Positions 6,955-59,438 of a DNA stretch of 64,000 nt are shown piece by piece. The stretch comes from Burkholderiales bacterium (GTDB lineage: Bacteria; Pseudomonadota; Gammaproteobacteria; Burkholderiales; Burkholderiaceae_C), in assembly GCA_947474755.1 (NCBI GenBank), contig CANJJE010000001.1:1-64000 (forward strand), given 5' to 3'. Position 1 is the stretch's first letter. Each line of letters begins with the position of its first letter. The position numbers and the translations under genes were made by a program. The notes under the pieces were generated by a model. The model did no database searches. It was not told the origin of the DNA and saw only the letters and a program-made list of their open reading frames with translations.

Positions 6955-7141
6955 GGGTGGTCTTCTCCTGTGGGTTGTTCGGTCGTCCGGCAAGTCCGCA
7001 CCGTCTTGCAGACTTGCGTGCGCCGCAGGTTACGCACGCGACCGGGCCAGCGGAATACGCCCGATGGCGTACATGTGACCGGGAACTGTCCCGACTTCGC
7101 TGCGCAATTCGTGGAGTCGACGTGCATCAGCAAAAAGCTGT

Positions 7142-10438
<3,297 letters not shown>

Positions 10439-38733: not shown

Positions 38734-38776
38734 TTGATATTCATCAACTTGGTTCAGCATGCTCGTGTGCTATAAA
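38734..38776 (+). promoter_or_regulatory. FNR/Anr box and promoter of the cytochrome gene
   Basis: TTGATATTCATCAA (38734-38747) is a perfect match to the FNR consensus TTGAT-N4-ATCAA, and one further base pair extends the arms. A TATAAA -10 hexamer lies at 38771-38776. The box centre (38740.5) is 41.5 nt before 38782, the position expected for a class II FNR-activated promoter. The predicted transcription start falls on, or next to, the ATG. Confidence 0.75.
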
Positions 38777-46523: not shown

Positions 46524-46731
46524 CAAGATTTCCTTGTGCTACGCGCGCCGCGGACACGCGGGCTGATCTCATCTGTGCCAACGGCATTGTGCGCGGCTGC
46601 GGCGCCTCAGCCAGATCGGCAGACGGTTTGACCGAAAAATCGGAAAAAGTGCCCGATTGCTCGCACAATCTTTGGACCGTGCCCCGACTTCGCATCTTGC
46701 GGCCCGGGCCGCGTCGGAGGAGTTGCGCTCG

Positions 46732-48168
46732 ATGACACACGCCCTGATCGTCGATGACGACGTGGATTCGGCGTCCACCCTGAAGGCGCTGATCATGGCC
46801 GAGCAGTGCACCGTCGCGGTGGCGCACAACCTGCGTGATGCGCGCCGCCAGATCGCGTTGCAGCAACCCGATCTCGTGCTGCTGGACCTGCAGTTGCCCG
46901 ACGGCAGCGGCATGGAACTCTTTTCCGTTCCCGAACTGCTCGCGAATTCCGAGGTGGTGCTGATCACCGGGTACGCCTCGCTGGAGACCTCGATCCAGGC
47001 GTTGCGCCTCGGTGCGGCGGACTATCTCGTCAAGCCGATCAACCTGCTGCGGCTGCAAGGCGTACTGTCGCGGCTGACGAAGCCGGCGCTGCTGAAGGCC
47101 GAGGTGGAGACGCTGGCCGCACAGGTCGCGCCCAGCGGCCACTTCGGCGCGCTGTGGGGCCGTGCGCCGGCGATGCTGCAGCTCTACGAGCAGATCGCCC
47201 GCGTCGCGATGACCAGCGTGACGGTGTTCATCACCGGAGAAAGCGGCAGTGGCAAGGAGGTTGTCGCGCAGACGGTGCACGACCTGAGCCGACGTCGCAA
47301 GCAGCCCTTCCTCGCAGTCAACTGTGGCGCCATCTCGCCGAACCTGATCGAGAGCGAGATCTTCGGCCACGAGAAAGGCAGCTTCACTGGCGCCGACCGG
47401 CAGCACCTGGGTTTCTTCGAGCGCGCCAGCGGCGGCACGCTGTTTCTCGACGAGATCACCGAAATGCCGATGGAGCTGCAGGTCAAGCTGCTGCGGGTGC
47501 TGGAGACAGGCAGCTTCATGCGCGTGGGCTCGACGCAGATGCAGGTGGCCGACGTGCGTGTGCTCGCCGCCACCAACCGCCGCCCTGAGCAGGCGGTCGC
47601 TGCGGGCCAGCTGCGCGAAGACCTGCTGTACCGGCTGAACGTGTTCCCGATCGAGCTTCCGCCGCTGCGCGACCGGCTCAGCGACGTCGATCTGCTGGCC
47701 CGGCACTTCCTGACTGCCTTCGGCGCGCAGGAAGGGCAGGCCAAGCACTTCAGCGCGGCTGCGCTGGAGCGTCTGGCGCAGTACCGCTGGCCGGGCAATG
47801 TGCGCGAGCTGCGCAATGCCGTGCAGCGTGCCTACGTGATGGCGGCAGGCGATGTCATCGATGAGCAGTGGTTGCCACAGCCCTCGCTGCTGTCGCACGC
47901 GGCGGCTGGCGGTGTTGTCGCGCCGGCGACGCCACCGGCAGCGAGGCGAACCGCATCGTTGTCCGACGAGGCATTCGAGCAGGAATCGATCACGCTGACC
48001 ATCGGCACGACGCTGGCTTCGGCAGAGCGCACGCTGATCCTCGCCACGCTGCGCCACCACCATCACCAGAAGGAGCGCACCGCTGCAGCGCTCGGGATCA
48101 GCCTGAAGACGCTCTACAACCGTCTGAAGGAATACGCGGCCGACGGCCTGGATCACGCGGCGCACTGA
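46732..48168 (+). CDS. Sigma-54-dependent response regulator
   Basis: This 478-residue NtrC-type activator has a receiver with Asp9/Asp10 and phospho-acceptor Asp52 (LLDLQLPDG). The AAA+ domain has Walker A GESGSGKE (169-176), loop GSFTGA (216-221, Ser for the usual Ala) and Walker B LFLDEI. A Fis-type helix-turn-helix (KERTAAALGISLKTLYNRLKEY) ends the protein. GGAGGA precedes the start. It should activate sigma-54 promoters when phosphorylated. Its likely partners are the convergent hybrid kinase at 48261 and the rpoN copy at 55435, by position. Confidence 0.93.
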   Translation: MTHALIVDDDVDSASTLKALIMAEQCTVAVAHNLRDARRQIALQQPDLVLLDLQLPDGSGMELFSVPELLANSEVVLITGYASLETSIQALRLGAADYLVKPINLLRLQGVLSRLTKPALLKAEVETLAAQVAPSGHFGALWGRAPAMLQLYEQIARVAMTSVTVFITGESGSGKEVVAQTVHDLSRRRKQPFLAVNCGAISPNLIESEIFGHEKGSFTGADRQHLGFFERASGGTLFLDEITEMPMELQVKLLRVLETGSFMRVGSTQMQVADVRVLAATNRRPEQAVAAGQLREDLLYRLNVFPIELPPLRDRLSDVDLLARHFLTAFGAQEGQAKHFSAAALERLAQYRWPGNVRELRNAVQRAYVMAAGDVIDEQWLPQPSLLSHAAAGGVVAPATPPAARRTASLSDEAFEQESITLTIGTTLASAERTLILATLRHHHHQKERTAAALGISLKTLYNRLKEYAADGLDHAAH

Positions 48169-48260
48169 CGGCAGGATGTTCGCGGTGTCGGTTGCACTGC
48201 GTCAAGTCCGCCGTGCTCTCTGGATGACGCCAACCCGCGCACGAAGCCTCTCGACAGGCT

Positions 48261-49796
48261 TCACCGATGCGCAGCGGGACCCTCGATCGCATCATGCAGC
48301 GCGGCGATCAGTTCGGACGGCTCGCATGGCTTGTCCAGCACGATGAAGTCTTCGCCTTCCAGCGTCTTTGCCGCATAGCCGCTGATCAGCACCACCGGCA
48401 GTTCGGGGCGGGTGTCGCGCAACACCCGGGCCAGGGCCAGGCCGTCCATGCCGCCAGGCATCCTGATGTCCGACAGCACCACGTCGAAGGCCGGTTCGTC
48501 GGCGATCAGGCGCAGCGCCCCCTGCGGGTCGGCGACGCGCCGCACTTCGCAGCCCAGGCTGCCGAGCAGCGCCACCGTCACTTCGGCGAGGTCATCGTTG
48601 TCCTCGACCAGCAGAACGCGTGCGCCGTCGATCCAGGGCGTCTGGATGTCCGGCGTCGTTGGCGCAACAACCGAAGGTGCTTCCTCGAAAGCGGGCAGCA
48701 GCAGCGACACCGTGGTGCCCAGTCCCTCGGTGCTGGTCAGCCTTGCCGTGCCGCCCGCCTGCACGCAGAAGCCCATCACCTGGGCCAGGCTGAGCCCGGT
48801 GCCCTGGCCCACTTCCTTGGTGGTGAAGAAGGGCTCGAACACGCGTCCTGCGACGTCGTCGTCGATGCCCAGGCCGTCGTCGCTGACGGTGATCAGCACA
48901 TAGTCGCCGTCCGGCAGGTCGGGCACTTCGTCCTCGTGCGCGCGCCGTGCCTGCACGAGAAGGTTGCCGCCCAAGGGCATCGCGTCGCGCGCGTTCAGCG
49001 TCAGATTGATCAGCGCCAGTTCGAGCTCGCTGGCGTCCACCGTGACGCGCGGTGTGCCCGGTGCCACCGCCACCGCGACCTTGGTGCGTGCGCCCATCAC
49101 CGTCTGCATCAGATCGCGCAAGTCGTGCAGCGCGTCGGCCAGATCGACGGGCTTCGCACAGACCGGCTGCTGGGCGGCGAAGCGCAGCAGCTGCTGCGTC
49201 AGCCGGCTGCCGACAGCCACCGCGCGCAGGGTCGCCGCCAGCGGCGCCTGCAGAGCAGCGTCGGTGGTCTGACGCTGCATCAGATGGGCGCTGTTGCTGA
49301 TCACGCCCAGCAGGTTGTTGAAGTCGTGCGCTACTCCTCCGGTCAGCCGTCCCAACGCCTCGATGTGCTGGCTGCGCGAGATGCGTTGCTCGGCCTCGCG
49401 GGCGCGCGTCACCGCGGCAGCGATCTCGCACTCGAGTTCGTTTCGGGCGTGGTGCAATCCATCGGCGGCCAGGGTCAGTGCCTCGCAGACTTCGTCGCAC
49501 TCCGCGATTCCGGTGATGCTTGTCGTCACCGGCTCGCCGGCCTGCATGCGGTCCGCGGCCTGCTTCAGCGAGTGCAGTGGCACGGTGATACGGCGTGCCA
49601 TCCACAGCGCTCCCGACACCGCCAGGCCCAGCAGCAGCAGCGAGCCGACCACCACCTGCTGCACCGCTTGCCGCTGTGCCGCGTCGTTGTTGATGACAAA
49701 CCAAAGCACCGCCACCACGCACGGCAGCCAGACCGACAGCACGAGCAGCAACAGGCGGGTGCGGATGGAAACGGTCATCGAAGCGGTTCCAGACAT
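48261..49796 (-). CDS. Hybrid histidine kinase (HAMP-HisKA-HATPase-receiver)
   Basis: This 511-residue kinase has two membrane helices near the N-terminus (about 13-35 and 49-66) with a very short loop between them and a HAMP-like region. HisKA carries His157 (GGVAHDFNNLLGVISNSAH). HATPase_c has NARDAM, DDGLGI and GTGLSL. A C-terminal receiver has Asp443 (LSDIRMP) and Lys489. The tiny extracytoplasmic loop suggests sensing within or near the membrane, or via a partner. It is convergent with the sigma-54 regulator. Confidence 0.92.
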   Translation of the reverse strand: MSGTASMTVSIRTRLLLLVLSVWLPCVVAVLWFVINNDAAQRQAVQQVVVGSLLLLGLAVSGALWMARRITVPLHSLKQAADRMQAGEPVTTSITGIAECDEVCEALTLAADGLHHARNELECEIAAAVTRAREAEQRISRSQHIEALGRLTGGVAHDFNNLLGVISNSAHLMQRQTTDAALQAPLAATLRAVAVGSRLTQQLLRFAAQQPVCAKPVDLADALHDLRDLMQTVMGARTKVAVAVAPGTPRVTVDASELELALINLTLNARDAMPLGGNLLVQARRAHEDEVPDLPDGDYVLITVSDDGLGIDDDVAGRVFEPFFTTKEVGQGTGLSLAQVMGFCVQAGGTARLTSTEGLGTTVSLLLPAFEEAPSVVAPTTPDIQTPWIDGARVLLVEDNDDLAEVTVALLGSLGCEVRRVADPQGALRLIADEPAFDVVLSDIRMPGGMDGLALARVLRDTRPELPVVLISGYAAKTLEGEDFIVLDKPCEPSELIAALHDAIEGPAAHR

Positions 49797-49926
49797 GAAT
49801 CAATGCGCTGCGCACAAGCAACGACCCCGGCAGGTCAAGGCCAGGCGCGCATCGCCCTGCCTGTCAGGGCAATTGTCGTTCCCGGCCTGCACGCCGGCGC
49901 ATGGCGTGGCTGTGTTTTTCGCCGGG

Positions 49927-50856
49927 TCAGCGCGCCGCGAGGTGTCCTTCGGCATCAGAGAACAGCACCTCGACCCGGCGATTACGCTGCCGACCCGCGG
50001 CGCTGCCGTTGTCGGCCACCGGATTCGCCTCGCCCCAGGCGCGGACCTCGATCCGGTCAGCCGCGATGCCGCCGTTCATCAGCTCCCGCTGGAAGGTCTC
50101 GGCGCGGCTCTGCGACAGCTTCATGTTCATCTCTTCGCTGCCGACGCTGTCGGTGAAGCCCTCGATCAGCACCCTGCGTTCGGGATGTTGGATCAGCACC
50201 TGCACCAGTTGCGCGACGCTGCGTTGCGCGCCCGGTTGCAGACTGGACTTGCCGGTATCGAACAGCACATCGCCCAGCGTCACCACCATGCCGCGGTCGG
50301 TCTTCCGGGCCTTCATGTCGGCCAGATCGCGCTCCAGCCCTTCAGCACGACTGGCTTGCCTCAGCGCCAGCAGTTGCGCGTCGTCGGCCTGCGTCCTCGA
50401 TATCTGTGCTTCGGTCTGTGCATTGCGCGCATCGGCCTGTGCATTGCGCGCATCCGCTTGCGCCGCGCGGGCGCTGGCGGTTGCGACATCGGCCTCCTGG
50501 GAGCGCGCCTGCAGACGCAGACGTTCCCGTTCAGCGCCGAACTGCTGCACACGCTCATCGGCCTGCGCCTGCATGCCCACTGCCATGGCGATGTCAGCGC
50601 GCTTGCGCGCCAGGTAGGCGAGGTGTCGCGTCTGCTCGACATCGCGATCGGCGGCCCAGGCGGCCTCGGCGTGGGTCATGGCCTGCTGTGCACTCTGCAA
50701 CTCGACGGCGCCGCTGCGGCCGACGTAGGGGTTGCTGCGGGCCTGGTCCAGCGAAGTGCGCGCGGCGGCGAGGTCCGGATTCGGGCTGGGGGTGGTCTGG
50801 CAAGCGGCAAGTGCCAACAGCGTGGCGGTGGCAATCAGGGTGCGGGTGGTGTTCAT
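49927..50856 (-). CDS. OmpA-family lipoprotein with DUF4398 region
   Basis: This 309-residue protein has a lipoprotein signal (LIATATLLALAACQ). An N-terminal DUF4398 region (AARTSLDQARSNPYV...) and a helical stretch with a repeated AQADARN unit, likely coiled coil, follow. The C-terminal OmpA peptidoglycan-binding domain has DVLFDTGKSSLQPGA and RVEVRAWGEANPVADN-type end motifs (NRRVEV). It should link the outer membrane to peptidoglycan. It lies 27 nt downstream of a second DUF4398 lipoprotein gene. Confidence 0.9.
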   Translation of the reverse strand: MNTTRTLIATATLLALAACQTTPSPNPDLAAARTSLDQARSNPYVGRSGAVELQSAQQAMTHAEAAWAADRDVEQTRHLAYLARKRADIAMAVGMQAQADERVQQFGAERERLRLQARSQEADVATASARAAQADARNAQADARNAQTEAQISRTQADDAQLLALRQASRAEGLERDLADMKARKTDRGMVVTLGDVLFDTGKSSLQPGAQRSVAQLVQVLIQHPERRVLIEGFTDSVGSEEMNMKLSQSRAETFQRELMNGGIAADRIEVRAWGEANPVADNGSAAGRQRNRRVEVLFSDAEGHLAAR

Positions 50857-50883
50857 GGTGTGTTCCGGAAGTTCATGCAAGGG

Positions 50884-51273
50884 TCATGGCATCGGGCGGG
50901 GGGCTTGCTTCGCCGCCGCGCGATTGAGTTCGTCGCGCAGCGTCTGCAGACCGGTCTCCAGCTCGGCGACCGCAAGTCGCGAGCGTTCCGAGCCCGCCTT
51001 GGCGCGTGCGAGCTGCGCATCCACGTCCGCTTGTTCGGCCATGCGCGTCGCGGCACGGTCATCACCGGCCGTGGCCAGCGCGCGGGCTTTCTCCAGCTTG
51101 TTGCGCGCTTCGTTCAGAACGATGGCGTCCAGCTCCGGTGCACCGGCCGAGCGAGCGGCTTCCACCGAGGACGCGCCGGCGGCGATCGACGGTGCCGCCG
51201 AAGGCGTGCTGCCGCAGCCCGCCAAGGCCATGGCGCAGCCGACCAGAACGGTGGTGAGGATCAGTGTCTTCAT
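50884..51273 (-). CDS. DUF4398 lipoprotein
   Basis: This 129-residue lipoprotein has a signal MKTLILTTVLVGCAMALAGC and a helical DUF4398 body (ELDAIVLNEARNKLEKARALA ... ADVDAQLARAKAGSERSRLA). The start at 51273 gives the signal peptide; the frame opens 8 codons earlier. It is paired with the following OmpA/DUF4398 gene and probably acts with it at the envelope. Function unknown. Confidence 0.85.
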   Translation of the reverse strand: MKTLILTTVLVGCAMALAGCGSTPSAAPSIAAGASSVEAARSAGAPELDAIVLNEARNKLEKARALATAGDDRAATRMAEQADVDAQLARAKAGSERSRLAVAELETGLQTLRDELNRAAAKQAPRPMP

Positions 51274-51423
51274 GCGATGTCTCCAGGGAGTGTTCAAGGG
51301 TTGGTCCTCTCCTGGGGCAATCGACGCGCCTGCGTTGCTCCTGGCCCAGGGCGCGCTGCAGTTGCTGCGCCGCTGGGAGGGCAGGGCCCGGGCCGGGCAG
51401 CCCCGAGCCTTGTCCGCCTCGAC

Positions 51424-53082
51424 TCAGGCGGGACGGTTCGGACCGGCCTCGACGGGCACGGGTGTCAGTGGCAGCGTGACCGTGAATTCGCTGCCCAGGC
51501 CCGCACCGGCGCTGCTTGCCGTGACGGTGCCGCCGTGCGCAGCGACCAGTTCCTCGACCACCGCCAGCCCCAGACCGAGCCCGTCGTCGTTGAACGCGGT
51601 GGCAACCTCGTCCTGCATGAACGGTTCGAAGATGTGAGGCAGGGCCTGCGCACTGATGCCGATGCCGTTGTCGCGCACCGTCAGCACCACCGCGTCGGCA
51701 CAGCGTCTCATCGACAGCGTGATCTCGCCCGAAGGGGGCGTGAACTTCGAGGCGTTGTCCAGCAGGTTGCGCAGCACCTGGGTCAGGCGCACTGGATCGC
51801 CGTACAACATCGTCTCGATGACCGGCAGCTGAACCTGGAGGCGCTGCAGCCGCGCGTCCAACGAGGGCCGGCTGGCGTCGACCACACCATTGATCAGGGC
51901 GATCAGGTTCACTGCGCTGCACGCCAGCCGAAGCTTGCCGCCTTGCACCCGGGACGCGTCGAGCAGGTCCCCGACCAGCCTCGACATCTGCGCGACCTGC
52001 CGCTCGATCACGGCATTCATCCGCGGCAGCGGCTGGGGAGTGCCCGTGCTCGCCATCGCCGCAGAAGCTGTACGGATCGACATCAAGGGTGATCGCAATT
52101 CGTGCACCGCACGCGCGATCTGCAGGTTGTGCCGTCTCAGGGCCTGTTCGGCCGCATCCTGCAGCCGCCTGGCATCCAGGGCAGTCAGCAGCAACTGTGC
52201 ATTGGCTTCTTGCCGGAGCTGATTCCGGTCTTCCTGTTCACCAATGGTTTGCTGGAAATGCGTGGCGGGGCGCCGCAGCGATTCGGGCAAGGCCGCTTGC
52301 AAGGCATCGCCGGACGGGTGGCCCGACGCGCTGAACATGGCACTTCCCAGGCCGTGACGCTTGGCTTCGTACATCGCGGCATCGGCGCGGTCGATCAAGG
52401 TCTGCGCGTCTTCGCCATCGTCGGGATAGACGCTGATGCCGATGCTGGCGCTCAGGCTCAGCACATGCTCGCCAAGGGGGGTCGGCACCGCCAGCGCGGC
52501 ATTGATCTTGTCGGCAATGGCGCAGGCATCGCTCGCGTGGGCCACATCGTCGAGCAGGATCAGGAATTCATCGCCGCCATAACGGCTGACAGTGTCCGAG
52601 GCGCGCACCGCCGCGACCATGCAGCGTGCGGCCATTTGCAGAACCTCATCGCCGAAGTGGTGTCCCCGTCCGTCGTTGATCTGCTTGAAATTGTTCAGGT
52701 CGACGAACAGCACCGCCATACGGCGATGGCGGCGTCGCCCGCCGGCGATGGCCTGGGTGAAGCGATCGAGGAACAGCATCCGGTTGGGCAGCTTCGTCAG
52801 CGCGTCGAGTGCGGCCACGCGCGACATTTCCAGCAAGGCGCTCATCGCCTCGTCGGCATCGACCTTCGACTGCATCAGCGCCAGCACCAGCAGTTCGTTG
52901 GCTTCCAGCAGATCGGAGGCGTTGCTGGAGCCGGCCACACGGGTTCGTGCCTCGGCCATGTACTCCTGCAGGGACTCCAGTGCCCTGCGTGCCTTGTCGG
53001 TCTCGATGCGCAGTTCGAGCAGTTCGCGCCTGGCCCAGGCCATCTCGACGGCACCGTGTTCGCGCTGAGCTGGGGTGTTCAC
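51424..53082 (-). CDS. Diguanylate cyclase fused to a histidine kinase
   Basis: This 552-residue cytoplasmic protein has an unusual domain order. An N-terminal helical region (1-90) precedes a GGDEF domain with an intact GGDEF active site at 169-173 and an inhibitory I-site RASD (160-163) five residues before it. HisKA with His327 (ARAVHELRSPL) and HATPase_c (NLLDNASKF, DNGIGI, DGLGLGLAVVEEL) follow. It should both make cyclic-di-GMP and phosphorylate a partner. It lies 4 nt after the KaiC-like gene, so the two are co-translated. Confidence 0.9.
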   Translation of the reverse strand: MNTPAQREHGAVEMAWARRELLELRIETDKARRALESLQEYMAEARTRVAGSSNASDLLEANELLVLALMQSKVDADEAMSALLEMSRVAALDALTKLPNRMLFLDRFTQAIAGGRRRHRRMAVLFVDLNNFKQINDGRGHHFGDEVLQMAARCMVAAVRASDTVSRYGGDEFLILLDDVAHASDACAIADKINAALAVPTPLGEHVLSLSASIGISVYPDDGEDAQTLIDRADAAMYEAKRHGLGSAMFSASGHPSGDALQAALPESLRRPATHFQQTIGEQEDRNQLRQEANAQLLLTALDARRLQDAAEQALRRHNLQIARAVHELRSPLMSIRTASAAMASTGTPQPLPRMNAVIERQVAQMSRLVGDLLDASRVQGGKLRLACSAVNLIALINGVVDASRPSLDARLQRLQVQLPVIETMLYGDPVRLTQVLRNLLDNASKFTPPSGEITLSMRRCADAVVLTVRDNGIGISAQALPHIFEPFMQDEVATAFNDDGLGLGLAVVEELVAAHGGTVTASSAGAGLGSEFTVTLPLTPVPVEAGPNRPA

Positions 53083-53086
53083 GGGC

Positions 53087-54619
53087 TCACTCCGGCTGCT
53101 CTGCTTCAGAGAAGCCCGCGCTCGGGTCGGTGCGGGTCAGCCCAGCCAGGGCCTTTCGGGTCGGACGACCACCCAGCAGCCCTTCCTGATCGGCGAGCAT
53201 CTCGCCGATGCGGATGCCGTCGTCTTCGATGTGGAATTCGCGCAGTTCGTCGGAATGTGCGCTGGCGCGCACCTTCACCACCGCGATCACACGGCGCAGG
53301 CAGCTGTCGACCTCGATGTAGCGCTGCACGATGATCGCGTCGGTCATGAAGGCCGTGCCGTAGGGACTGAAGCGAAGGTCGCTGTAGCGGTCCTCGAGTT
53401 CGGAGGTCATCAGCGTCGTCACACCGGCGCCGGCCATCGCCTTCACCAGGCGTGACATCGATTCACGGAAGTCGTCGCGAAAGGTGGGTGCCACTGCCAG
53501 TTCGAAGCTGGAGAGCGAATCGATCACGACGCGCGTGGCCTTGAGCCGACGGATCTCGTCGAGCAGCAGCATCACGATCTCGTCGATCGACAGATCGGAC
53601 GCCTGACTGTCGACCACGCCGACCCGGCCGCTCGAGATCAGGTCGGTGATCACCCGGTTGCGCGAACGGTTCGGGTGCTGCTCGAACACCGCGATCACGC
53701 CGGTTTCTCCCAGTCGGGCGCCTTCGGCCAGGAACGCCGCAGCCAGAATGCTCTTGCCCGACCCCGAAGGCCCTGACACCAGCAGCGAATAACCGCGCGG
53801 CAGACCACCGCCCATCATCTCGTCGAGGTTCGGCACACCCATCCGCGCGCGTGAATTGGCTGCCGATGCGGTCGGCGTGGCGGCCGGCATCGAATGGGCC
53901 TCCAGCTCCCGCGGCGGCAGTGCGAAGACGCGCACGCCGCTGTGGTCGATGCGAAAGGTGTGCAGCCCCGGCAGGGTGGCCTGGCCGCGCATCTTCATGA
54001 CCTCCAGCTTGCGCACCACCGAATTGCGCATCACGCTCTGGCGCATCCAGATCAGGCCGTCGGCCACGGTGAACACCGGGTTCGCATCGGTTTCGACGAA
54101 GTACTCGCCGATCAGGAAGGTGGTCGCCTGCCAGCTCGTCATCAGCATGCCGAGCTGCTGCACGAACGACTGCAGGCTGGTGTGCATATTCGGCGCGTGT
54201 TGCTGGGCGATGCTGGCCAGCACCACCGAGCGGAACGAGTCGACGAAGACCAGCGACGGGCCGCGGGTGGTCACCTCTTCGACGATGCGGCGCAGCACCC
54301 GGTCGAGATCGCCCGCCATCGCCTCTTCGGACAGGTTGATGAAGCGGATCGCGTGCGTCACCGCTTCGGTGTCGAAGAAATCGAACTGCTGCTGGTAGCG
54401 CAGCATCTTCAACGGGGGCTCGCCCAGCACGGTGAAGTAAAGCGCAGGGCGTTCAGGGGTGGCGAGGGCAAACATGATCTGGTGGGCGAGCGTGGTCTTT
54501 CCGCAGCCCGGCTGCCCGGCGATCAGGTTGAACGAGAACTCCGGCAGCCCACCGCCGAGCACTTCGTCCATCCCCGGGACGCCGGTGCGCAGCCGGTTGA
54601 TGGTCACTTTGGTGTTCAT
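53087..54619 (-). CDS. KaiC-like tandem RecA-type ATPase
   Basis: This 510-residue protein has two KaiC/RadA-type domains. The first has LRTGVPGMDEVLGGGLPEFS and Walker A GQPGCGKTT (35-43). The second has MGVPNLDEMMGGGLPRGYS and Walker A GPSGSGKS (283-290). It resembles circadian KaiC in layout, but no kaiA or kaiB is nearby. I also do not see the Ser-Thr phosphorylation pair of clock KaiC in the second domain. Non-clock KaiC relatives act in signal transduction. It overlaps the upstream unknown gene by 4 nt and is followed after 4 nt by the GGDEF-kinase gene. Confidence 0.9.
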   Translation of the reverse strand: MNTKVTINRLRTGVPGMDEVLGGGLPEFSFNLIAGQPGCGKTTLAHQIMFALATPERPALYFTVLGEPPLKMLRYQQQFDFFDTEAVTHAIRFINLSEEAMAGDLDRVLRRIVEEVTTRGPSLVFVDSFRSVVLASIAQQHAPNMHTSLQSFVQQLGMLMTSWQATTFLIGEYFVETDANPVFTVADGLIWMRQSVMRNSVVRKLEVMKMRGQATLPGLHTFRIDHSGVRVFALPPRELEAHSMPAATPTASAANSRARMGVPNLDEMMGGGLPRGYSLLVSGPSGSGKSILAAAFLAEGARLGETGVIAVFEQHPNRSRNRVITDLISSGRVGVVDSQASDLSIDEIVMLLLDEIRRLKATRVVIDSLSSFELAVAPTFRDDFRESMSRLVKAMAGAGVTTLMTSELEDRYSDLRFSPYGTAFMTDAIIVQRYIEVDSCLRRVIAVVKVRASAHSDELREFHIEDDGIRIGEMLADQEGLLGGRPTRKALAGLTRTDPSAGFSEAEQPE

Positions 54620-55050
54620 GTCTTGGAATCCTTTTGAGCGGGGTCGCCCGGAGCATCGATCCACACGGGTCGCATCAAGCGCTCGGTGAGCGCCGATCCG
54701 ACCACGCTAGACAGCAACTGGTGGAAGGTGGAGAACAGCATGGCGGCACCGGCCATGGCGGTGATGCTGTCCTGCTGGCGAAGCAGCGGTATCAACTCGG
54801 TGAAGTCGACGACCGCCAGTGCCGCGTCGTGCTCGATGCGCAGCCAGGGATGAGCCTGCGCGCTGCAATGAATACTGCGCTTGTAAAGCGCTGCCAGCCC
54901 CCGGCTGCCGATGATGGGCACCAACGCCGCATCGATCTCGCGCCAGGTGGCGACCACGGCGTCTGCAATCTGCGAGGTGTCGGCATTCGGCGCGATCCTT
55001 TGCGCCAAAAGGACTGAGACCGGAATACCCGTCGGGCTTTCCGTGGGCAT
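54616..55050 (-). CDS. Unknown protein coupled to the KaiC-like ATPase
   Basis: This 144-residue soluble, mainly helical protein (TSQIADAVVATWREIDAALVP ... LLRQQDSITAMAGAAMLFSTFHQLLSSVVG) is not recognised. It is not KaiB-like in sequence. Its stop overlaps the KaiC-like start by 4 nt (54616-54619), so it is probably a partner or regulator of that ATPase. It is the first gene of the minus-strand operon. Confidence 0.75.
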   Translation of the reverse strand: MPTESPTGIPVSVLLAQRIAPNADTSQIADAVVATWREIDAALVPIIGSRGLAALYKRSIHCSAQAHPWLRIEHDAALAVVDFTELIPLLRQQDSITAMAGAAMLFSTFHQLLSSVVGSALTERLMRPVWIDAPGDPAQKDSKT

Positions 55051-55133
55051 CGTCAGCTTCCCCTGTTCGGTACGGCTTTGATATTAGGGCTTGTTCACAA
55101 CGCCGAGCTTGAGCCCGAAGAACGCTTTTCGAC

Positions 55134-55147
55134 TTGATCTGCGTCAA
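55134..55147. promoter_or_regulatory. FNR/Anr-type box
   Basis: TTGATCTGCGTCAA matches TTGAT-N4-ATCAA at nine of ten fixed positions, the variant (GTCAA) being common in Anr/FNR sites of pseudomonads and betaproteobacteria. It lies 84 nt from the start of the minus-strand operon and about 288 nt from the rpoN start. It suggests oxygen-responsive control of one or both. Confidence 0.6.
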
Positions 55148-55421
55148 TGTCGGTGTCGCGGCGTGAGTGGACAGTTGCCACGTGTTCGAGGGCGCGCGCA
55201 CTGCACGCGCAGATCGGCAAGATTTGCTGCAAGGATCGCCGCATCGGTAGAGGTGGGCGGTACTGTTGGCGCGCCGCGGTCAGTGCACTGCCTTGGCGAT
55301 GCGCGGCTGCGGGGCGCGGACGCTCCTTGTCGCCGAGGCTCGCCAGTTCTGGTGCCCGGCATGGGTGTTGCGATCAGCAGGGGGCAGGTGGGCCGATGTG
55401 TCGGTCCCGAACCGTTTTCTC

Positions 55422-55427
55422 GAGGAG
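55422..55427 (+). promoter_or_regulatory. Ribosome binding site that supports the TTG start of rpoN
   Basis: GAGGAG lies 7 nt before the TTG at 55435. No comparable site precedes the in-frame ATG about 40 nt earlier. The TTG places the sigma-54 N-terminal region right at the start, as in homologues. Confidence 0.65.
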
Positions 55428-55434
55428 TCATACT

Positions 55435-56916
55435 TTGGCATCGCTGGATTTTCGAGCCAACACCCGACAGGCACAGACGCTGTCGCCACGTTTTCAGCAC
55501 GCGGTTCGGCTGCTGCAGCTGTCGTCGATGGATTTCGCTGCGACGGTGCGCGATGTGCTGGGCCAGAACCCGTTTCTCGAGCTGGAAGATGGAGGCGAAG
55601 GTGCTGACGCAGCGGATGCTGATTCCGATGGCGATGGTGTGGACAGCGAAGCCGACCGTGCGGCGGCAGAGGCATCACCCGCAACGATGTTCGACGACCT
55701 CGCGATGTCTGCCGACCCCGACGGGATGCCCGACGATCGGGGCGACGACCGCGATCTGTGGCAGTTCGAGGGTTCCTCGCCGCAGCGGCCGTCAGGCGAA
55801 GGCGAGGTGTCGGCCCTGGACATGATGGCGGTCGAGATGCCCTTGAATGCTCACCTCAGTGCCCAGCTCGATCTGCAGCCGCTGGCCACTCGCGAAAGAT
55901 GGATGGCGCGCGTCATCGTCGAATCGCTCGACGATGACGGCTACCTGCGCATCCCTATGGCCGAGCTGTGTGAACTGTGTGAACTGGCTCCACCCGTGAC
56001 GCTGGCCGAGGTGCAGGCCGCCTTGCAGCGGGTGCAGGCGCTGGACCCGGCCGGTGTGGCGGCATGCAGCGTGGCCGATTGCCTGCGGCTCCAGCTGCCT
56101 GCGATCGAATGCCCCCAGCTGCGCGCGCTCGCCGCGCGCATCGTGGCCGAGCACCTGCCGCTGCTGGCGGCACGCGATGTCCCGGCGCTTTCGCGGGCGC
56201 TGGGTGAACCCGCGATGCGGGTCCAGCAGGTGTGCGATCGCATCCGCCGCTTCGATCCCCGGCCCGGCTGGCGCTTCAGTTCGACGCGCATCGCCTACGT
56301 GGTGCCCGACGTGGTGGTGAAGAAGGTCCGCGGTGAATGGCTGGTGCAGCTGAACCCGGCGGTGATTCCGCGGGTGCGCCTGAACCAGGTGTACGAGCAG
56401 TTGTTCATGCGTCATCGCAGTCCGGCCCACTCCGATATGGCCGGCCAGTTGCAGGAGGCGCGCTGGACGGTGAAGAACGTCGAGCAGCGCTTTTCGACCA
56501 TCCTTGATGTGGCCGAAGCGATCGTCAAGCGGCAGCGCCACTTCCTCGAACTCGGGCCGATGGCGATGAAGCCGCTGGGTCTGAAGGAGATCGCCGACGA
56601 GCTCGGTGTCCATGAATCGACGGTCTCGCGGGTGACCAACAACAAGTTCATCGCCACGCCCAGTGGGGTGTTCGAGCTGAAGCATTTCTTCTCGAGGGTG
56701 ATGCTCACGGCCAACGGCAGCGCCTGCTCTGGCAAGGCGATACGCGGCTTGCTGAAGGACCTGATTGATGCAGAGGCGCCGCAGGCCCCTCTGACCGATG
56801 CCGAGATCACCCGGCAGCTGGCGCAGCAGGGTCTGCTGGTGGCTCGGCGCACCGTCACCAAATACCGGCAGCTGCTGCGTATCGAGCCGGTCGGGCGCCG
56901 TCGTCGCCATGACTGA
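55435..56916 (+). CDS. rpoN: RNA polymerase sigma-54 factor, second copy type
   Basis: This protein of about 493 residues has the Gln/Leu-rich region I (RQAQTLSPRFQHAVRLLQLSSMDF), an acidic region II (EDGGEGADAADADSDGDGVD) and the core-binding domain. The helix-turn-helix (LGVHESTVSRVTNNKFI) and RpoN box (ARRTVTKYR near the C-terminus) follow. It is not flanked by lptB, hpf or ptsN as the housekeeping rpoN usually is, so it is probably a paralogue. Translation likely starts at TTG 55435. It heads a run of overlapping genes and lies about 7 kb from a sigma-54-dependent regulator gene. Confidence 0.9.
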   Translation: MASLDFRANTRQAQTLSPRFQHAVRLLQLSSMDFAATVRDVLGQNPFLELEDGGEGADAADADSDGDGVDSEADRAAAEASPATMFDDLAMSADPDGMPDDRGDDRDLWQFEGSSPQRPSGEGEVSALDMMAVEMPLNAHLSAQLDLQPLATRERWMARVIVESLDDDGYLRIPMAELCELCELAPPVTLAEVQAALQRVQALDPAGVAACSVADCLRLQLPAIECPQLRALAARIVAEHLPLLAARDVPALSRALGEPAMRVQQVCDRIRRFDPRPGWRFSSTRIAYVVPDVVVKKVRGEWLVQLNPAVIPRVRLNQVYEQLFMRHRSPAHSDMAGQLQEARWTVKNVEQRFSTILDVAEAIVKRQRHFLELGPMAMKPLGLKEIADELGVHESTVSRVTNNKFIATPSGVFELKHFFSRVMLTANGSACSGKAIRGLLKDLIDAEAPQAPLTDAEITRQLAQQGLLVARRTVTKYRQLLRIEPVGRRRRHD

Positions 56917-57037
56917 CCGTTCCGCCGAGCCTGCCCGTGGCACATCGCTTGCCACTGATGACGTCATCAGCGGCGCCGAGTCGCGGCGGCAGGGGCGGAT
57001 CACGTTTCGTCCCGCCGATATGGGAGTGCCCCGATGA
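56909..57037 (+). CDS. Small protein coupled to rpoN (42 residues)
   Basis: The ATG overlaps the rpoN stop by 8 nt, and the stop overlaps the ATG of the next gene by 4 nt (ATGA, 57034-57037). This chain argues that the ORF is translated. The product, MTDRSAEPARGTSLATDDVI followed by a basic stretch ending in ADMGVPR, is polar and not recognised. It could be a true small protein or only a coupling leader. Confidence 0.5.
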   Translation: MTDRSAEPARGTSLATDDVISGAESRRQGRITFRPADMGVPR

Positions 57038-57624
57038 ACACCGACAGTGATCTGCTCAAGCGCTGGCCGCAGCCCGTGACGCTGGACATCGGCGTGCATT
57101 ACGAGAGCGGCCCGCCGGATTGCCACAGCTATGGTCTTGCGGGCTGTGATCGCACGCCACAGGTTCGTGTGCTGATGCCGCAGCACAGCGGAGCGCCTCT
57201 CGAACTGCAGCGTCTGGACTGGTCGACATTGCCGGGCCGCACGCTGTATCTGCGCAGCTTGAGTGTGCTCGCCGTCCACCTGTTTGGCGCTGTGCAGATG
57301 CCCCCACGCGTTCGCGGCACGCCACTGTGGCAGCACATCAGCGTCGGGATATCGACCGACCAGAACGGCGCCCATCAGGTCTATTTCGAGCTGGATGCCG
57401 TTGACGACGCGCGTGCGGTCCTTTGCTATCGCTGTCGAGAGATGCAGCCGCTGGTGCGTCGGCTGCTGGCTCTCGATGTGCTTGACGCTGATCCGCTGCG
57501 CGCGCTGTTGCGCATCGGCATGGCGCGCGTGCGCCCGGTCCTGATGCGCAGGCCGCAGCCGGTGCGTTCCTCACCGCATCCACGACACATGCACGCGGCG
57601 CCGGAGCTGGCGCAGCAGGCGTGA
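57034..57624 (+). CDS. Hypothetical protein in the rpoN operon
   Basis: This 196-residue soluble protein is not recognised. The beginning (VTLDIGVHYESGPPDCHSYGL) and middle (RVRGTPLWQHISVGISTDQNGAHQVYFELDAVDDARAVLCYR) look like a beta-rich domain. The C-terminal 35 residues are basic and proline-rich. It has an ATGA overlap with the upstream small ORF and lies 25 nt before the glycosyltransferase gene. Function unknown. Confidence 0.7.
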   Translation: MNTDSDLLKRWPQPVTLDIGVHYESGPPDCHSYGLAGCDRTPQVRVLMPQHSGAPLELQRLDWSTLPGRTLYLRSLSVLAVHLFGAVQMPPRVRGTPLWQHISVGISTDQNGAHQVYFELDAVDDARAVLCYRCREMQPLVRRLLALDVLDADPLRALLRIGMARVRPVLMRRPQPVRSSPHPRHMHAAPELAQQA

Positions 57625-57649
57625 TTCGGTCAGCGCCTCGGGGATTTCC

Positions 57650-58333
57650 GTGATCGCAGTGATCATTTCGGCACACAACGACGAAGCGCGGCTGCCTGCC
57701 TGCCTGCGGGCGGTGCGCGAGGCCTCTCGCCGCCGTCGCCTGGGCGGCGAGGCAGTGCTTCGGCTGGTGGTGCTCGACGCGTGCACGGATGGCAGCGCGG
57801 CCATCGCCCGCGAAGGCGGTGCGCACACGCTGAGCCTGCAGGTCTGCAACATCGGCGCCGCAAGGGCGCAGGGCGCTCAGTGGGCGATCGAGCGCGGTGC
57901 GCGCTGGCTGGCGTTCACCGACGCTGATTCCGTCGTCGCCCCGGACTGGCTGTCGGTGCAATTGGCGCTCGAGGCGGACGTGGTGTGCGGGACGCTCGGT
58001 GTGCGCGACTGGGGCCAGGACGGCGAGCGCATGCGTCGCCACTACGAGGCTCACTACACCGATGCCGATGGACACCGGCACGTTCACGGCGCCAACCTCG
58101 GTGTCAGCGCCGAGGCCTATCGGCTCGCGGGCGGCTGCCATCCCATGGCATGCAGCGATGATGTGGCGCTGGTGTGCGCGCTGCAGGCCTGCGGCGCGAC
58201 CATCGCCTGGTCGGCGGCGCCACGGGTAGCGACAAGCGCGCAGCGTCTGTTCAAGGCCCCGTCGGGCTTCGGTGCAACCGTGCAGCGCATCGACGCCGCA
58301 AGTCGCATTCTTGCGGCACAGGAGAGCGCATGA
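57650..58333 (+). CDS. Family 2 glycosyltransferase
   Basis: This 227-residue GT-A fold enzyme starts at GTG 57650 with MIAVIISAHNDEARLPACLRA. The nucleotide-sugar-binding motif is Asp91-Ala-Asp93 (FTDADSVV); an acceptor-side region HVHGANLGVSAEAYRLAGG follows. There are no membrane helices. It probably adds a sugar to a lipid or small molecule; the acceptor is unknown. Its stop overlaps the next small ORF by 4 nt. Confidence 0.88.
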   Translation: MIAVIISAHNDEARLPACLRAVREASRRRRLGGEAVLRLVVLDACTDGSAAIAREGGAHTLSLQVCNIGAARAQGAQWAIERGARWLAFTDADSVVAPDWLSVQLALEADVVCGTLGVRDWGQDGERMRRHYEAHYTDADGHRHVHGANLGVSAEAYRLAGGCHPMACSDDVALVCALQACGATIAWSAAPRVATSAQRLFKAPSGFGATVQRIDAASRILAAQESA

Positions 58334-58536
58334 GTGCCATGGACGCCATCGCGGATGCTGTGGCCGACACACGCCTGCCCTGGCCGCTTCGCCAGAGTCC
58401 GGCGCTGGTGCGCCTGCGCGCTGCCCTGATGGCGCAGCGACCCGAGCGCGAAGCCATCGAGGAGGTCTGCGACCGACTGCTTGCGCCTTTGTGCACCGGC
58501 ACTGAAGCGGGCGACAAGACGGGTTCGACGGCATGA
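58330..58536 (+). CDS. Small protein coupled to the glycosyltransferase (68 residues)
   Basis: The ATG overlaps the glycosyltransferase stop by 4 nt. The stop in turn overlaps an ATG that opens the frame of the Crp-type regulator (58533). The product (MSAMDAIADAVADTRLPWPL, then helical RALMAQRPEREAIEEVCDRLL-like sequence) is not recognised. The double ATGA overlap supports it as a real gene of the operon. Confidence 0.55.
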   Translation: MSAMDAIADAVADTRLPWPLRQSPALVRLRAALMAQRPEREAIEEVCDRLLAPLCTGTEAGDKTGSTA

Positions 58537-58652
58537 GTGATCGCTCCGGCGGGCTGAGGGTGCCGGTGCCGCCCGTATCGGTTCGGCGTCCTGATCCACG
58601 CGATTCATCCAGCCGGGTTGTCGGGCGGCACGTCGCTTGCCCTTCAGGGCGC

Positions 58653-59438
58653 ATGAAGTGCCTTTGCGAATCCCCCTCCACCCGCTTTGCAGTGCCAAAG
58701 CCCCAGCGCAGTGTGGCGTTGGACATCAGCCAGAGCGCCCACAAGAACTGCTTGCTGGCGCGGTTGCCCGATGCGTCGTGGCAGCGCTGGCTCCCTCAGC
58801 TGGAGTGGGTCGACTTTCACCAGGGCCAGGTACTGCACGAGTCGGGTGTGTCGCCCAGCCATGCCTACTTTCCGACCACCGCCATCCTGTCGCTGCTCAA
58901 CGTGACGCAGGATGGTGCATCGACCGAGATCGCCGCTGTCGGCAATGAAGGATTGGTCGGCGTGTCCCTGTTCATGGGTGGGGTGTCGACCTGCAGTCGC
59001 GCGGTGGTTCAAAGCGCCGGCTTCGGGCTGCGGCTGAAGGCGCAGACGATGCGAGCCGAGTTCGAGCGGTCTTCCGAGGTGATGCAGCTGCTGCTGCGCT
59101 ACACACAGGCGCTGATGACACAGATGGGTCAGACGGCAGTATGCAATCGCCACCATTCGATCGACCAGCAGTTGTGCCGCTGCCTGCTGTTGAACCTGGA
59201 CCGACTCGGTGGCAACGAGATCGTGATGACGCACGAACTCATCGCCGGCACGCTGGGTGTGCGTCGGGAAGGGGTCACCGAGACGGCACTGAAGCTGCAG
59301 GCAGCCGGCCTCATCCGCTATGCGCGCGGGCACATCACCGTGCTCGAGCGCAGCGGGCTGGAGCACCGCGCCTGCGAGTGCTATGAGGTGATGAGGAAGG
59401 AATACGACCGGCTGCTCACGGACAAGCTGGCGGCCTGA
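58653..59438 (+). CDS. Crp/Fnr-family transcriptional regulator
   Basis: This regulator (about 261 residues from 58653) has a cyclic-nucleotide-binding-like sensor domain (GQVLHESGVSPSHAYFPTTAILSLL; GNEGLVGVSLFMGG). The C-terminal winged helix is MTHELIAGTLGVRREGVTETALKLQ. The recognition helix lacks the ExxSR pattern of FNR, and there is no FNR-type cysteine cluster, so it should not bind the FNR boxes seen here. The frame also opens at 58533 with a 4-nt overlap to the previous gene, but those 40 residues look unconserved. The exact start is open. Confidence 0.88.
   Translation: MKCLCESPSTRFAVPKPQRSVALDISQSAHKNCLLARLPDASWQRWLPQLEWVDFHQGQVLHESGVSPSHAYFPTTAILSLLNVTQDGASTEIAAVGNEGLVGVSLFMGGVSTCSRAVVQSAGFGLRLKAQTMRAEFERSSEVMQLLLRYTQALMTQMGQTAVCNRHHSIDQQLCRCLLLNLDRLGGNEIVMTHELIAGTLGVRREGVTETALKLQAAGLIRYARGHITVLERSGLEHRACECYEVMRKEYDRLLTDKLAA

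Follow-up and report, generated by a model that had tools for sequence, protein, structure and literature searches.

A signalling island of about 13 kb in the window (the whole stretch of 64,000 nucleotides that was analysed) joins two modules that are usually apart. One consists of RpoN2, which is an additional sigma-54 factor, and its activator, the other of a KaiC-like ATPase and a cyclase-kinase fusion. We think it rather probable that this regulatory island is gained or lost in one piece between tim44 and tolB, with a p144-KaiC-GGDEF-HK cassette built into an older module of RpoN2, activator and hybrid kinase, giving a sigma-54 circuit plus a KaiC switch.

Gene content of the island

The genes named in the sequence-only reading are real, its whole list being confirmed by ORF calls and Pfam, and the divergence of the rpoN paralogue (+) from p144-KaiC-GGDEF-HK (-) was borne out by the ORF calls. 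The span of 46732-58536 given there does contain these genes, but its end has to be moved, since the block (46.7-59.4 kb) runs on to the end of a CRP-family gene at 59438. The genes are:

46732..48168 (+): s54RR, NtrC-type response regulator with REC, sigma-54 AAA+ and HTH_8 domains (Pfam; the ORF opens at 46657)
48261..49796 (-): hyHK, membrane-type hybrid histidine kinase, HAMP/HisKA/HATPase/REC (Pfam)
49927..50880 (-): DUF4398-OmpA lipoprotein, lipobox LAAC (Pfam and motif)
50884..51297 (-): DUF4398 lipoprotein, lipobox LAGC, likely ATG 51273 (Pfam and motif)
51424..53082 (-): GGDEF-HisKA-HATPase fusion (Pfam and motifs)
ORF 53087..54664 (-): tandem KaiC-like ATPase, two KaiC domains, likely ATG 54619 (Pfam, motifs)
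54616..55050 (-): p144, 144 aa, first gene of the KaiC cassette (ORF, alignment)
55435..56916 (+): rpoN2, sigma-54 paralogue, likely start TTG 55435 (Pfam, tree)
57034..57624 (+): p196, 196 aa, beta-rich, family not assigned (ORF, AlphaFold2)
57650..58333 (+): GT2 glycosyltransferase (Pfam)
58327..58536 (+): small ORF of about 69 aa, without a family match (ORF)
ORF 58533..59438 (+): CRP/FNR-family regulator, true start 3' of 58641 (Pfam)

Tight coupling, proposed earlier for each operon, holds for p144-KaiC-GGDEF-HK, where the p144 and KaiC genes share an ATGA overlap and the fusion gene follows KaiC after 4 nt, and for the DUF4398 pair and p196-GT2-small ORF. It is confined to these three sets, because upstream gaps of about 100-150 nt or more precede DUF4398, the hybrid kinase, rpoN2 and p196. 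An ORF resembling the small one is also present in L037, L138 and L139 (L037 and L139 are one genome).

RpoN2 contains all three sigma-54 domains (AID, core-binding and DNA-binding) and the RpoN box ARRTVTKYR. The other rpoN of the genome, RpoN1, lies on contig C2 and is about 40% identical. In the tree RpoN2 is separate from RpoN1, of which 10 rows share a single branch (100/100); the long rows L176 and L177 are unsurely placed and are labelled RpoN1 there by the identity cut-off, while the upstream-site and locus tallies below count them with RpoN2. Translation of rpoN2 most likely starts at TTG 55435, as this codon and its GAGGAG Shine-Dalgarno sequence are kept in two relatives; the alternative ATG 55147 is disfavoured on the same grounds.

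The presence of REC, AAA+ and HTH domains, and a GAFTGA loop that reads GSFTGA, make s54RR an NtrC-type activator. It adjoins the hybrid kinase in 5/8 genomes with the island, namely those whose fetched contig spans both. A REC-AAA-HTH regulator with a hybrid kinase resembles NtrC-family two-component systems; the tie to a dedicated sigma-54 paralogue differs.

Distribution of the two modules

RpoN2 was found in 8 of the 15 genomes of the genus and KaiC in the same 8, with neither in the other 7. The KaiC and RpoN2 matches are 721-796 bp apart in the 8 genomes. Thus, as the earlier note had supposed, the two divergent units belong together within the genus: they share genomes, lie less than 1 kb apart and have sigma-54-like elements in common. 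The 8 island genomes are related and the counts are not independent. Island absence is clean in only one of the 7 genomes (completeness 74-96%), G150, in which the flanking genes tim44 and tolB adjoin. A CRP fragment precedes tolB at the contig start in G152, the contig of G154 ends at tolB, and the remaining four have something different upstream of tolB.

Outside the genus the picture changes. The co-occurrence search proposed in the sequence-only reading, with p144, KaiC and the GGDEF-kinase, revealed a widespread cassette: p144-KaiC-(GGDEF-)kinase is spread over Pseudomonas, Burkholderiales and Xanthomonadales, with p144 in 85 of the 88 KaiC loci listed. Rubrivivax gelatinosus (L096) is among the carriers. 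L021 (on the same contig as L102) and L027 (p144 without KaiC) were dropped from these 88 loci, and L019 and L036 are one genome. None of RpoN2, activator and hybrid kinase was found in the 88 KaiC loci listed (about 20 kb each, some shorter), and KaiC was found in none of the 24 RpoN2 loci. The activator occurs in 15/24 RpoN2 loci (within about 10 kb) and the hybrid kinase in 4/24, and a CRP-family gene lies within the locus in 16 of the 88 KaiC loci listed and in 0/24 RpoN2 loci. The rpoN and KaiC units are therefore not a pair beyond the genus, an outcome that the earlier note had itself named as refuting their linkage. Six other genomes of the family have both, 15 kb apart in one, 510 kb apart in another and on different contigs in four.

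This separation speaks for another explanation in which the genes are neighbours only, independent stress genes gathered at one tim44-tolB insertion spot without a common pathway. The variable content of the island fits this as well: GT2 is present in 4/8 island genomes, an extra kinase match in 3/8, and in G153 catalase, hemerythrin and hydrolase genes replace the lipoproteins and kinase seen in others. The perfect co-occurrence within the genus argues against it, as do the common promoter-like elements, which are missing from the cassette elsewhere. In the family as a whole, p144 and RpoN2 also share genomes more often than expected (7/13 vs. 15/136), which genome size may explain. We consider mere neighbourhood improbable and retain the circuit-plus-switch reading.

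Sigma-54-like elements

The intergenic regions contain the following elements, which from their letters and positions may be sigma-54 promoters, and one FNR-type box:

49868..49884 (-): element before hyHK, CGGGAACGACAATTGCC (weak; letters identical in 3 of 5 usable genomes)
51316..51332 (-): element before the DUF4398 pair, CAGGCGCGTCGATTGCC (cross-genome scoring, exact pattern)
55134..55147: FNR-type box TTGAT-N4-GTCAA, one mismatch (poorly conserved)
55143..55159 (-): decayed element before the KaiC operon, GCGACACCGACATTGAC (neither key dinucleotide is kept)
55356..55372 (+): -24/-12 element before rpoN2, CCGGCATGGGTGTTGCG (matrix from other genera)
56937..56953 (+): element before p196, GTGGCACATCGCTTGCC (kept in 8/8 genomes)
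58625..58641 (+): element before the CRP-family gene, GCGGCACGTCGCTTGCC (same-place site in 8/8 genomes)

A plain sigma-54 consensus scan of the window yields 708 weak sites where chance would give about 640. Because such a scan is useless alone, sites were judged by where they lie and by whether other genomes conserve them. Matrix matches of at least 9 bits are not commoner in the window than by chance either (13 vs. 15.5 expected). The element before rpoN2 ranks first in the 64-kb window with a matrix trained outside the genus (20.3 bits, the next 15.3) and is present in 8/8 island genomes. Outside the genus an rpoN2 site was found in 21/24 loci, compared with 6.75% of random 400-nt stretches (binomial 4e-22).

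The DUF4398 element occurs in 7/7 genomes with the gene in the fetched stretch (scores 12.0-12.5, 75-100 nt), and the element of the CRP-family gene scores 9.5-12.5 bits across the 8 island genomes. The KaiC operon has an intact element in 5/8 island genomes. The window is not among them: its own copy is mutated at both key dinucleotides, an observation that counts against the circuit.

When p144 genes outside the genus were searched in this way, 2/85 had an upstream site, against 3.85% of random stretches, and 19 CRP-family genes near KaiC outside the genus had no upstream site of 13 or more. The elements thus go with RpoN2 linkage. Few elements were seen before other RpoN2 neighbours outside the genus. 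None of the 17 activator rows listed has an upstream site of at least 13 (two rows cover less than 100 nt, and parts of genes fall within L188 and L199), and a wider look found an 18.0-bit site about 400 nt upstream of the activator in L195.

A pattern drawn from the island sites, GGCACG-YCG-NTTGCC, matches 54 sites, of which 23 belong to the 8 island genomes (hand tally), an enrichment that is partly circular because the pattern came from those sites. Such elements could bind a dimeric protein, because GGCA...TGCC is quasi-palindromic. They might then be operators of a dimeric regulator, e.g., the CRP-family protein of the island, leaving the rpoN2 element as the only sigma-54 promoter. A site precedes the CRP-family gene itself in 8/8 genomes, and the -12 part ends in TTGCC and not in TTGCA/T, as an operator would allow. 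On the other hand, all gene-preceding matches of the island are oriented alike, with GGCACG upstream and TTGCC toward the gene, and their length is odd (15 bp), in which usual CRP/FNR sites differ. In addition, the 19 CRP-family genes near KaiC elsewhere lack a match with up to 2 mismatches, although these may not be orthologues. We regard operators as an unlikely alternative that deserves consideration, and continue with sigma-54 promoters as the preferred reading.

Beyond the island, the exact pattern GGCACGNNNNTTGC has 12 matches in the own genome and its reversed form 7. Five remote matches of the GGCACG-YCG-NTTGCC type were inspected, and no remote regulon targets are claimed. Those in G103 and G155 sit within one orthologous gene, those in the own genome and G153 lie close to a gene start within called ORFs that may not be real, and the match in G154, a genome without the island, is intergenic.

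The FNR-type box reported between the two units is indeed present with one mismatch to TTGAT-N4-ATCAA, in a weak form: chance gives 0.65 boxes with up to one mismatch in 64 kb. A redox input through FNR, in the sense of the sequence-only reading, would control the KaiC operon and rpoN2. A box with one mismatch does lie at the same intergenic place in 3/8 island genomes, whereas the other 5 have 3-4 mismatches. It overlaps the decayed element before the KaiC operon, and its right half is the -12 part of that element. At 38734 the window also has an FNR box without any mismatch, which indicates what chance or other genes yield. Redox input leans on this poorly conserved box, and we consider FNR control very unlikely.

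KaiC-like ATPase, p144 and the fusion kinase

Two PF06745 matches identify the KaiC-like protein as a two-domain KaiC ATPase, and both Walker A motifs are intact. Aligned to solved KaiC, the clock phosphosite positions T426/S431/T432 read S/A/F in 92/92 KaiC rows (the KaiC scan took the best 80 of 213 relatives, with at least 71% identity), so that both main phosphosites, of the S431/T432 type, are A and F throughout. KaiB was not found in any of the 15 genus genomes searched. The protein shares its two-domain architecture with KaiC of the KaiABC circadian clock; because the phosphosites and KaiB are missing, it is not a clock protein. A Kai-type clock or hourglass timer could still be argued from the two intact ATPase domains and from the proposal that KaiC-kinase pairs are hourglasses (PMC3164672). 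The same paper states, in the part available, that KaiC homologues lacking the two sites are probably unable to sustain cyclic timing. Together with the missing sites and KaiB, this makes a timer hardly credible.

The available part of PMC3164672 describes a proteobacterial non-clock group of KaiC (the 'third/black group') with poor phosphosites, AF being among the listed pairs, that is found close to histidine kinases or GGDEF proteins and frequently lacks kaiB. The protein studied here has poor phosphosites, a kinase/GGDEF neighbour and no kaiB, and was assigned to this group by these described features. That part of the paper does not mention a conserved small gene before kaiC, an exchange of kinase and cyclase, or a sigma-54 link. 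Of the gene set for which the earlier note knew no described system, KaiC beside kinases or GGDEF proteins is in print there. A search of the open-licence literature found nothing on KaiC with GGDEF in Burkholderiales.

The small protein p144 matched no family of Pfam or of NCBIfam at E 0.01. It is conserved (alignment A1: 61 of 86 available rows, window included; L094 was left off the list) and all-helical, and its AlphaFold2 model (mean pLDDT 83.8) has no PDB match at E <= 0.001. A role as cofactor or KaiA-like protein was not adopted, as it rests solely on gene position. Protein p196 is nearly confined to the genus (4/150 family genomes, two of these weak); its beta-rich AlphaFold2 model (pLDDT 74.5) also lacks a PDB match at E <= 0.001.

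All expected motifs are present in the GGDEF-HK fusion: a coiled N-terminus, GGDEF, the I-site RxxD, the HisKA motif HELRSP and HATPase. The GGDEF and RxxD motifs predict a diguanylate cyclase, and the H, N and G boxes of histidine kinases are present. The kinase histidine is lost in 9 of the 27 proteins with GGDEF and HATPase, compared with 1/51 without GGDEF. This natural loss suggests that KaiC can drive either output.

Environmental Pseudomonas offers a comparison. Terrettaz and others reportedly found in 2023 that KaiC-like proteins of these bacteria support stress resistance and biofilm. Pseudomonas loci in our set carry p144-KaiC-kinase, a likeness at the level of the genus. Their kinases lack GGDEF (L044 and L115 are among the exceptions), and RpoN2 is not alongside.

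Proposed mechanism

From gene content, linkage, presence or absence as a block, conserved promoter-like sites and intact or lost motifs, we infer that one pathway may unite the island proteins; the phosphorylation steps, the stress signal and all protein contacts in what follows are proposals. The common promoter-like sites on several island genes make a joint switch plausible, though unproven. A stress signal would reach the hybrid kinase, which would phosphorylate the NtrC-type activator. With sigma-54 (RpoN1 first, then RpoN2) the activator would drive rpoN2 itself and the promoters of p196-GT2, the CRP-family regulator and the DUF4398 envelope lipoproteins; the KaiC operon would be under the same control in five of the eight genomes. 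KaiC would hydrolyse ATP in two rings, a clock phosphorylation cycle presumably being impossible, and may be an ATP-dependent switch that, with p144 as partner, acts on the coiled N-terminal part of the fusion kinase. Output would be c-di-GMP, a phosphorelay, or both.

RpoN2 of R. solanacearum, in the available part of PMC4371752, is about 44% identical to RpoN1 and has its own sigma-54 promoter; its expression requires rpoN1 and its role is called enigmatic. RpoN2 of the island, with its similar distance from RpoN1 and its conserved element, is likened to it by these features. KaiC is not mentioned in that part of the paper.

More tentatively, and with considerable doubt, we suggest that this may be a new bacterial switch. 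A KaiC-type double ATPase without clock phosphosites and an undescribed helical partner, p144, would set a state that depends on energy, and an exchangeable output protein, either a cyclase or a kinase or one that is both, would read this state. Within the genus such a switch would sit in a self-amplifying RpoN2 circuit, so that one stress signal would set sigma-54 transcription and c-di-GMP together. This would give a testable role to two open cases, the widespread non-clock KaiC proteins, which have no known function, and the second sigma-54 factor of Burkholderiales.

Gene content and order

All the genes that the sequence-only reading had listed were recovered by ORF calling and Pfam searches, and they are arranged as follows:

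Minus strand, downward from 55050: p144 (144 aa), KaiC-like protein, GGDEF-histidine kinase, DUF4398 protein, DUF4398-OmpA protein, hybrid kinase
Plus strand, facing the hybrid kinase: NtrC-type regulator (activator)
Plus strand: rpoN2, p196 (196 aa), GT2, small ORF, CRP-family regulator, then tolB-pal-cpoB-like genes

The p144 gene overlaps that of KaiC by ATGA, and another rpoN (RpoN1) is present in the same genome. Neither p144 nor p196 was assigned a family in Pfam and family searches. GT2 occurs in four of the eight island genomes, and in three of the eight the p196-CRP interval holds a kinase match, the one scanned being a PAS-kinase-receiver protein. In genome G153 (locus L136) such a gene (6989-9127) replaces GT2, with matches in loci L140 and L141. 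At 15409-18116 of L136, alpha/beta hydrolase, hemerythrin and catalase genes replace the lipoproteins and hybrid kinase of other islands, a stretch that reaches the contig end. The contigs of G162 and G156 stop short of the hybrid kinase.

The island behaves as a block in the genus

RpoN2 was found in 8 of the 15 genus genomes (66-80% identity to the window protein, itself aside), and KaiC of this type in exactly these eight, 721-796 bp from RpoN2 (Fisher 1.6e-4, 15 genomes). The other seven gave only RpoN1-type sigma-54 matches, with short partial KaiC matches in six and none in G154. In G150, tim44 adjoins tolB with 235 nt between the matches, and this DNA is similar to both outer flanks of the window island. 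The region upstream of tolB differs in four island-less genomes. A CRP-family fragment precedes tolB at a contig start in G152, and the G154 contig stops at tolB; because these contigs start or end beside tolB, the seeming lack of the island may reflect incompleteness.

Two modules that are independent elsewhere

Of the 149 family genomes besides the window's, 22 encode RpoN2-like proteins (51-80% identity over the match; RpoN1 gives about 40%), and G011 adds a partial match. At 24 RpoN2 loci in 21 genomes, all outside the genus, an activator match (at least 290 bits) was present at 15 and a hybrid kinase match (at least 200 bits) at four others; CRP, p144, KaiC, p196 and GT2 were present at none. 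At L199 the activator match beside RpoN2 is in two pieces, perhaps by a frameshift. A DUF2383-type gene recurs near RpoN2 (L186, L190, L191, L196), preceded at L191 (4440-4970) by a 14.9-bit sigma-54-like site.

The other module is the KaiC cassette. p144 is present in 14 of 150 family genomes, the window's included, and KaiC lies beside it in 12 of the other 13. A scan of named genomes, from which the best 80 of 213 KaiC relatives were kept, extended the set to Pseudomonas, Lysobacter-type bacteria, Rubrivivax, Thiomonas and others. With these best 80, duplicates and the genus counted, p144 adjoins KaiC in 89/92 loci and a fusion-kinase-like gene follows KaiC in 87/92; in each of the 92 KaiC rows the three positions of the clock phosphosites read S/A/F and both Walker A lysines are retained. 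No KaiB was found in the 15 genus genomes, and nothing in the data points to a clock. p144 is predicted to be all-helical (pLDDT 83.8, 61-row alignment), with no solved relative by sequence, nor by fold at E 0.001. At L027 (G039), which lacks KaiC, a GGDEF gene comes after p144. Some Pseudomonas loci (L046, L057, L069, L085) have, less than 6 kb from the cassette, another KaiC-like gene that is only distantly related (about 27% identity).

Among 88 KaiC loci outside the genus, drawn in part from the best 80 of 213 scan relatives, 16 have CRP-family genes nearby, and none has the activator, the hybrid kinase or rpoN2. The idea that the rpoN2 and KaiC operons stay together is not supported beyond the genus: since neither module holds the other's genes at these 24 and 88 loci, they are independent elsewhere and interleaved in the window island. 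Six non-genus genomes have both modules, 510 kb apart in G143 and on different contigs, some short, in four. In G062 (contig C4, loci L022 and L202) the activator, RpoN2 and the KaiC cassette share a contig, with RpoN2 and p144 15 kb apart. Co-occurrence of p144 and RpoN2 in the family exceeds expectation (7/13 versus 15/136), which larger genomes may explain. DUF4398-OmpA-like genes recur near both KaiC (L025, L026, L028) and RpoN2 (L186, L192).

Output domains of the third cassette gene

In 86 third genes (L021 dropped), 51 encode a HATPase domain without a GGDEF motif, including L024 with a degenerate GGDEF domain and L029 with a receiver; the phospho-acceptor histidine is present in 50 of the 51. 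GGDEF and HATPase are combined in 27. The histidine is kept in 18 of them, the window type (three rows from the genus, two of those from one genome), and replaced by A, D, N, E or V in nine. GGDEF without HATPase was found in seven, one at a contig end, and neither domain in one. Histidine loss is thus associated with GGDEF (9/27 versus 1/51; Fisher 2e-4, with related rows that are not independent). The histidine-less proteins mostly keep their ATP-binding boxes. The sequences suggest that the cassette can signal through either c-di-GMP or a phosphorelay.

Promoter-like elements

A -24/-12-like element lies upstream of rpoN2 in all eight genus island genomes (score at least 13) and at 21 of 24 loci outside, whereas 400-nt stretches taken at random from those loci contain one in 6.75% of cases (binomial 4e-22). 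With a matrix from the 21 outside sites, the window rpoN2 site ranked top at 20.3 bits; the runner-up (15.3) is intragenic. According to PMC4371752, rpoN2 of R. solanacearum carries a promoter of this kind and needs rpoN1 for its expression.

Another sigma-54-like element type, the second class (consensus about GGCACGYCGNTTGCC), precedes both p196 and CRP in 8/8 island genomes, DUF4398 in 7/7 (weaker, 12.0-12.5) and the KaiC operon in 5/8; a related element precedes the hybrid kinase in 3/5. By hand tally, 23 of 54 matches in the eight island genomes fall inside the island, about 0.4% of the DNA, as do 3 of 9 in the window's own genome; the seven genomes without the island have 20. Since the pattern was drawn from island sites, only its positional conservation counts as independent evidence. 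A second-class element also lies upstream of the L136 alpha/beta hydrolase gene. Outside the genus, KaiC operons showed no enrichment of sigma-54-like sites (2/85 versus 3.85%) or second-class elements (6/85 versus 4.05%), and none of 19 CRP-family genes had the element. The window KaiC-operon element has lost both key dinucleotides, and the FNR-type box proposed between the two divergent units (55134-55147) overlaps it. A perfect FNR-type palindrome, TTGATATTCATCAA, lies at window 38734-38747.

Interpretation

Each part of the island is of a known kind. In the open-licence literature searched, we found no description of the gene combination or of the p144-KaiC-cyclase/kinase cassette as an entity. 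From family knowledge, we infer a signal-to-kinase-to-activator sequence, a switch by the KaiC ATPase and the role of p144. Because of the linkage, the block behaviour and the shared elements, the island is likely to form one transcriptional circuit in the genomes of the genus that carry it.
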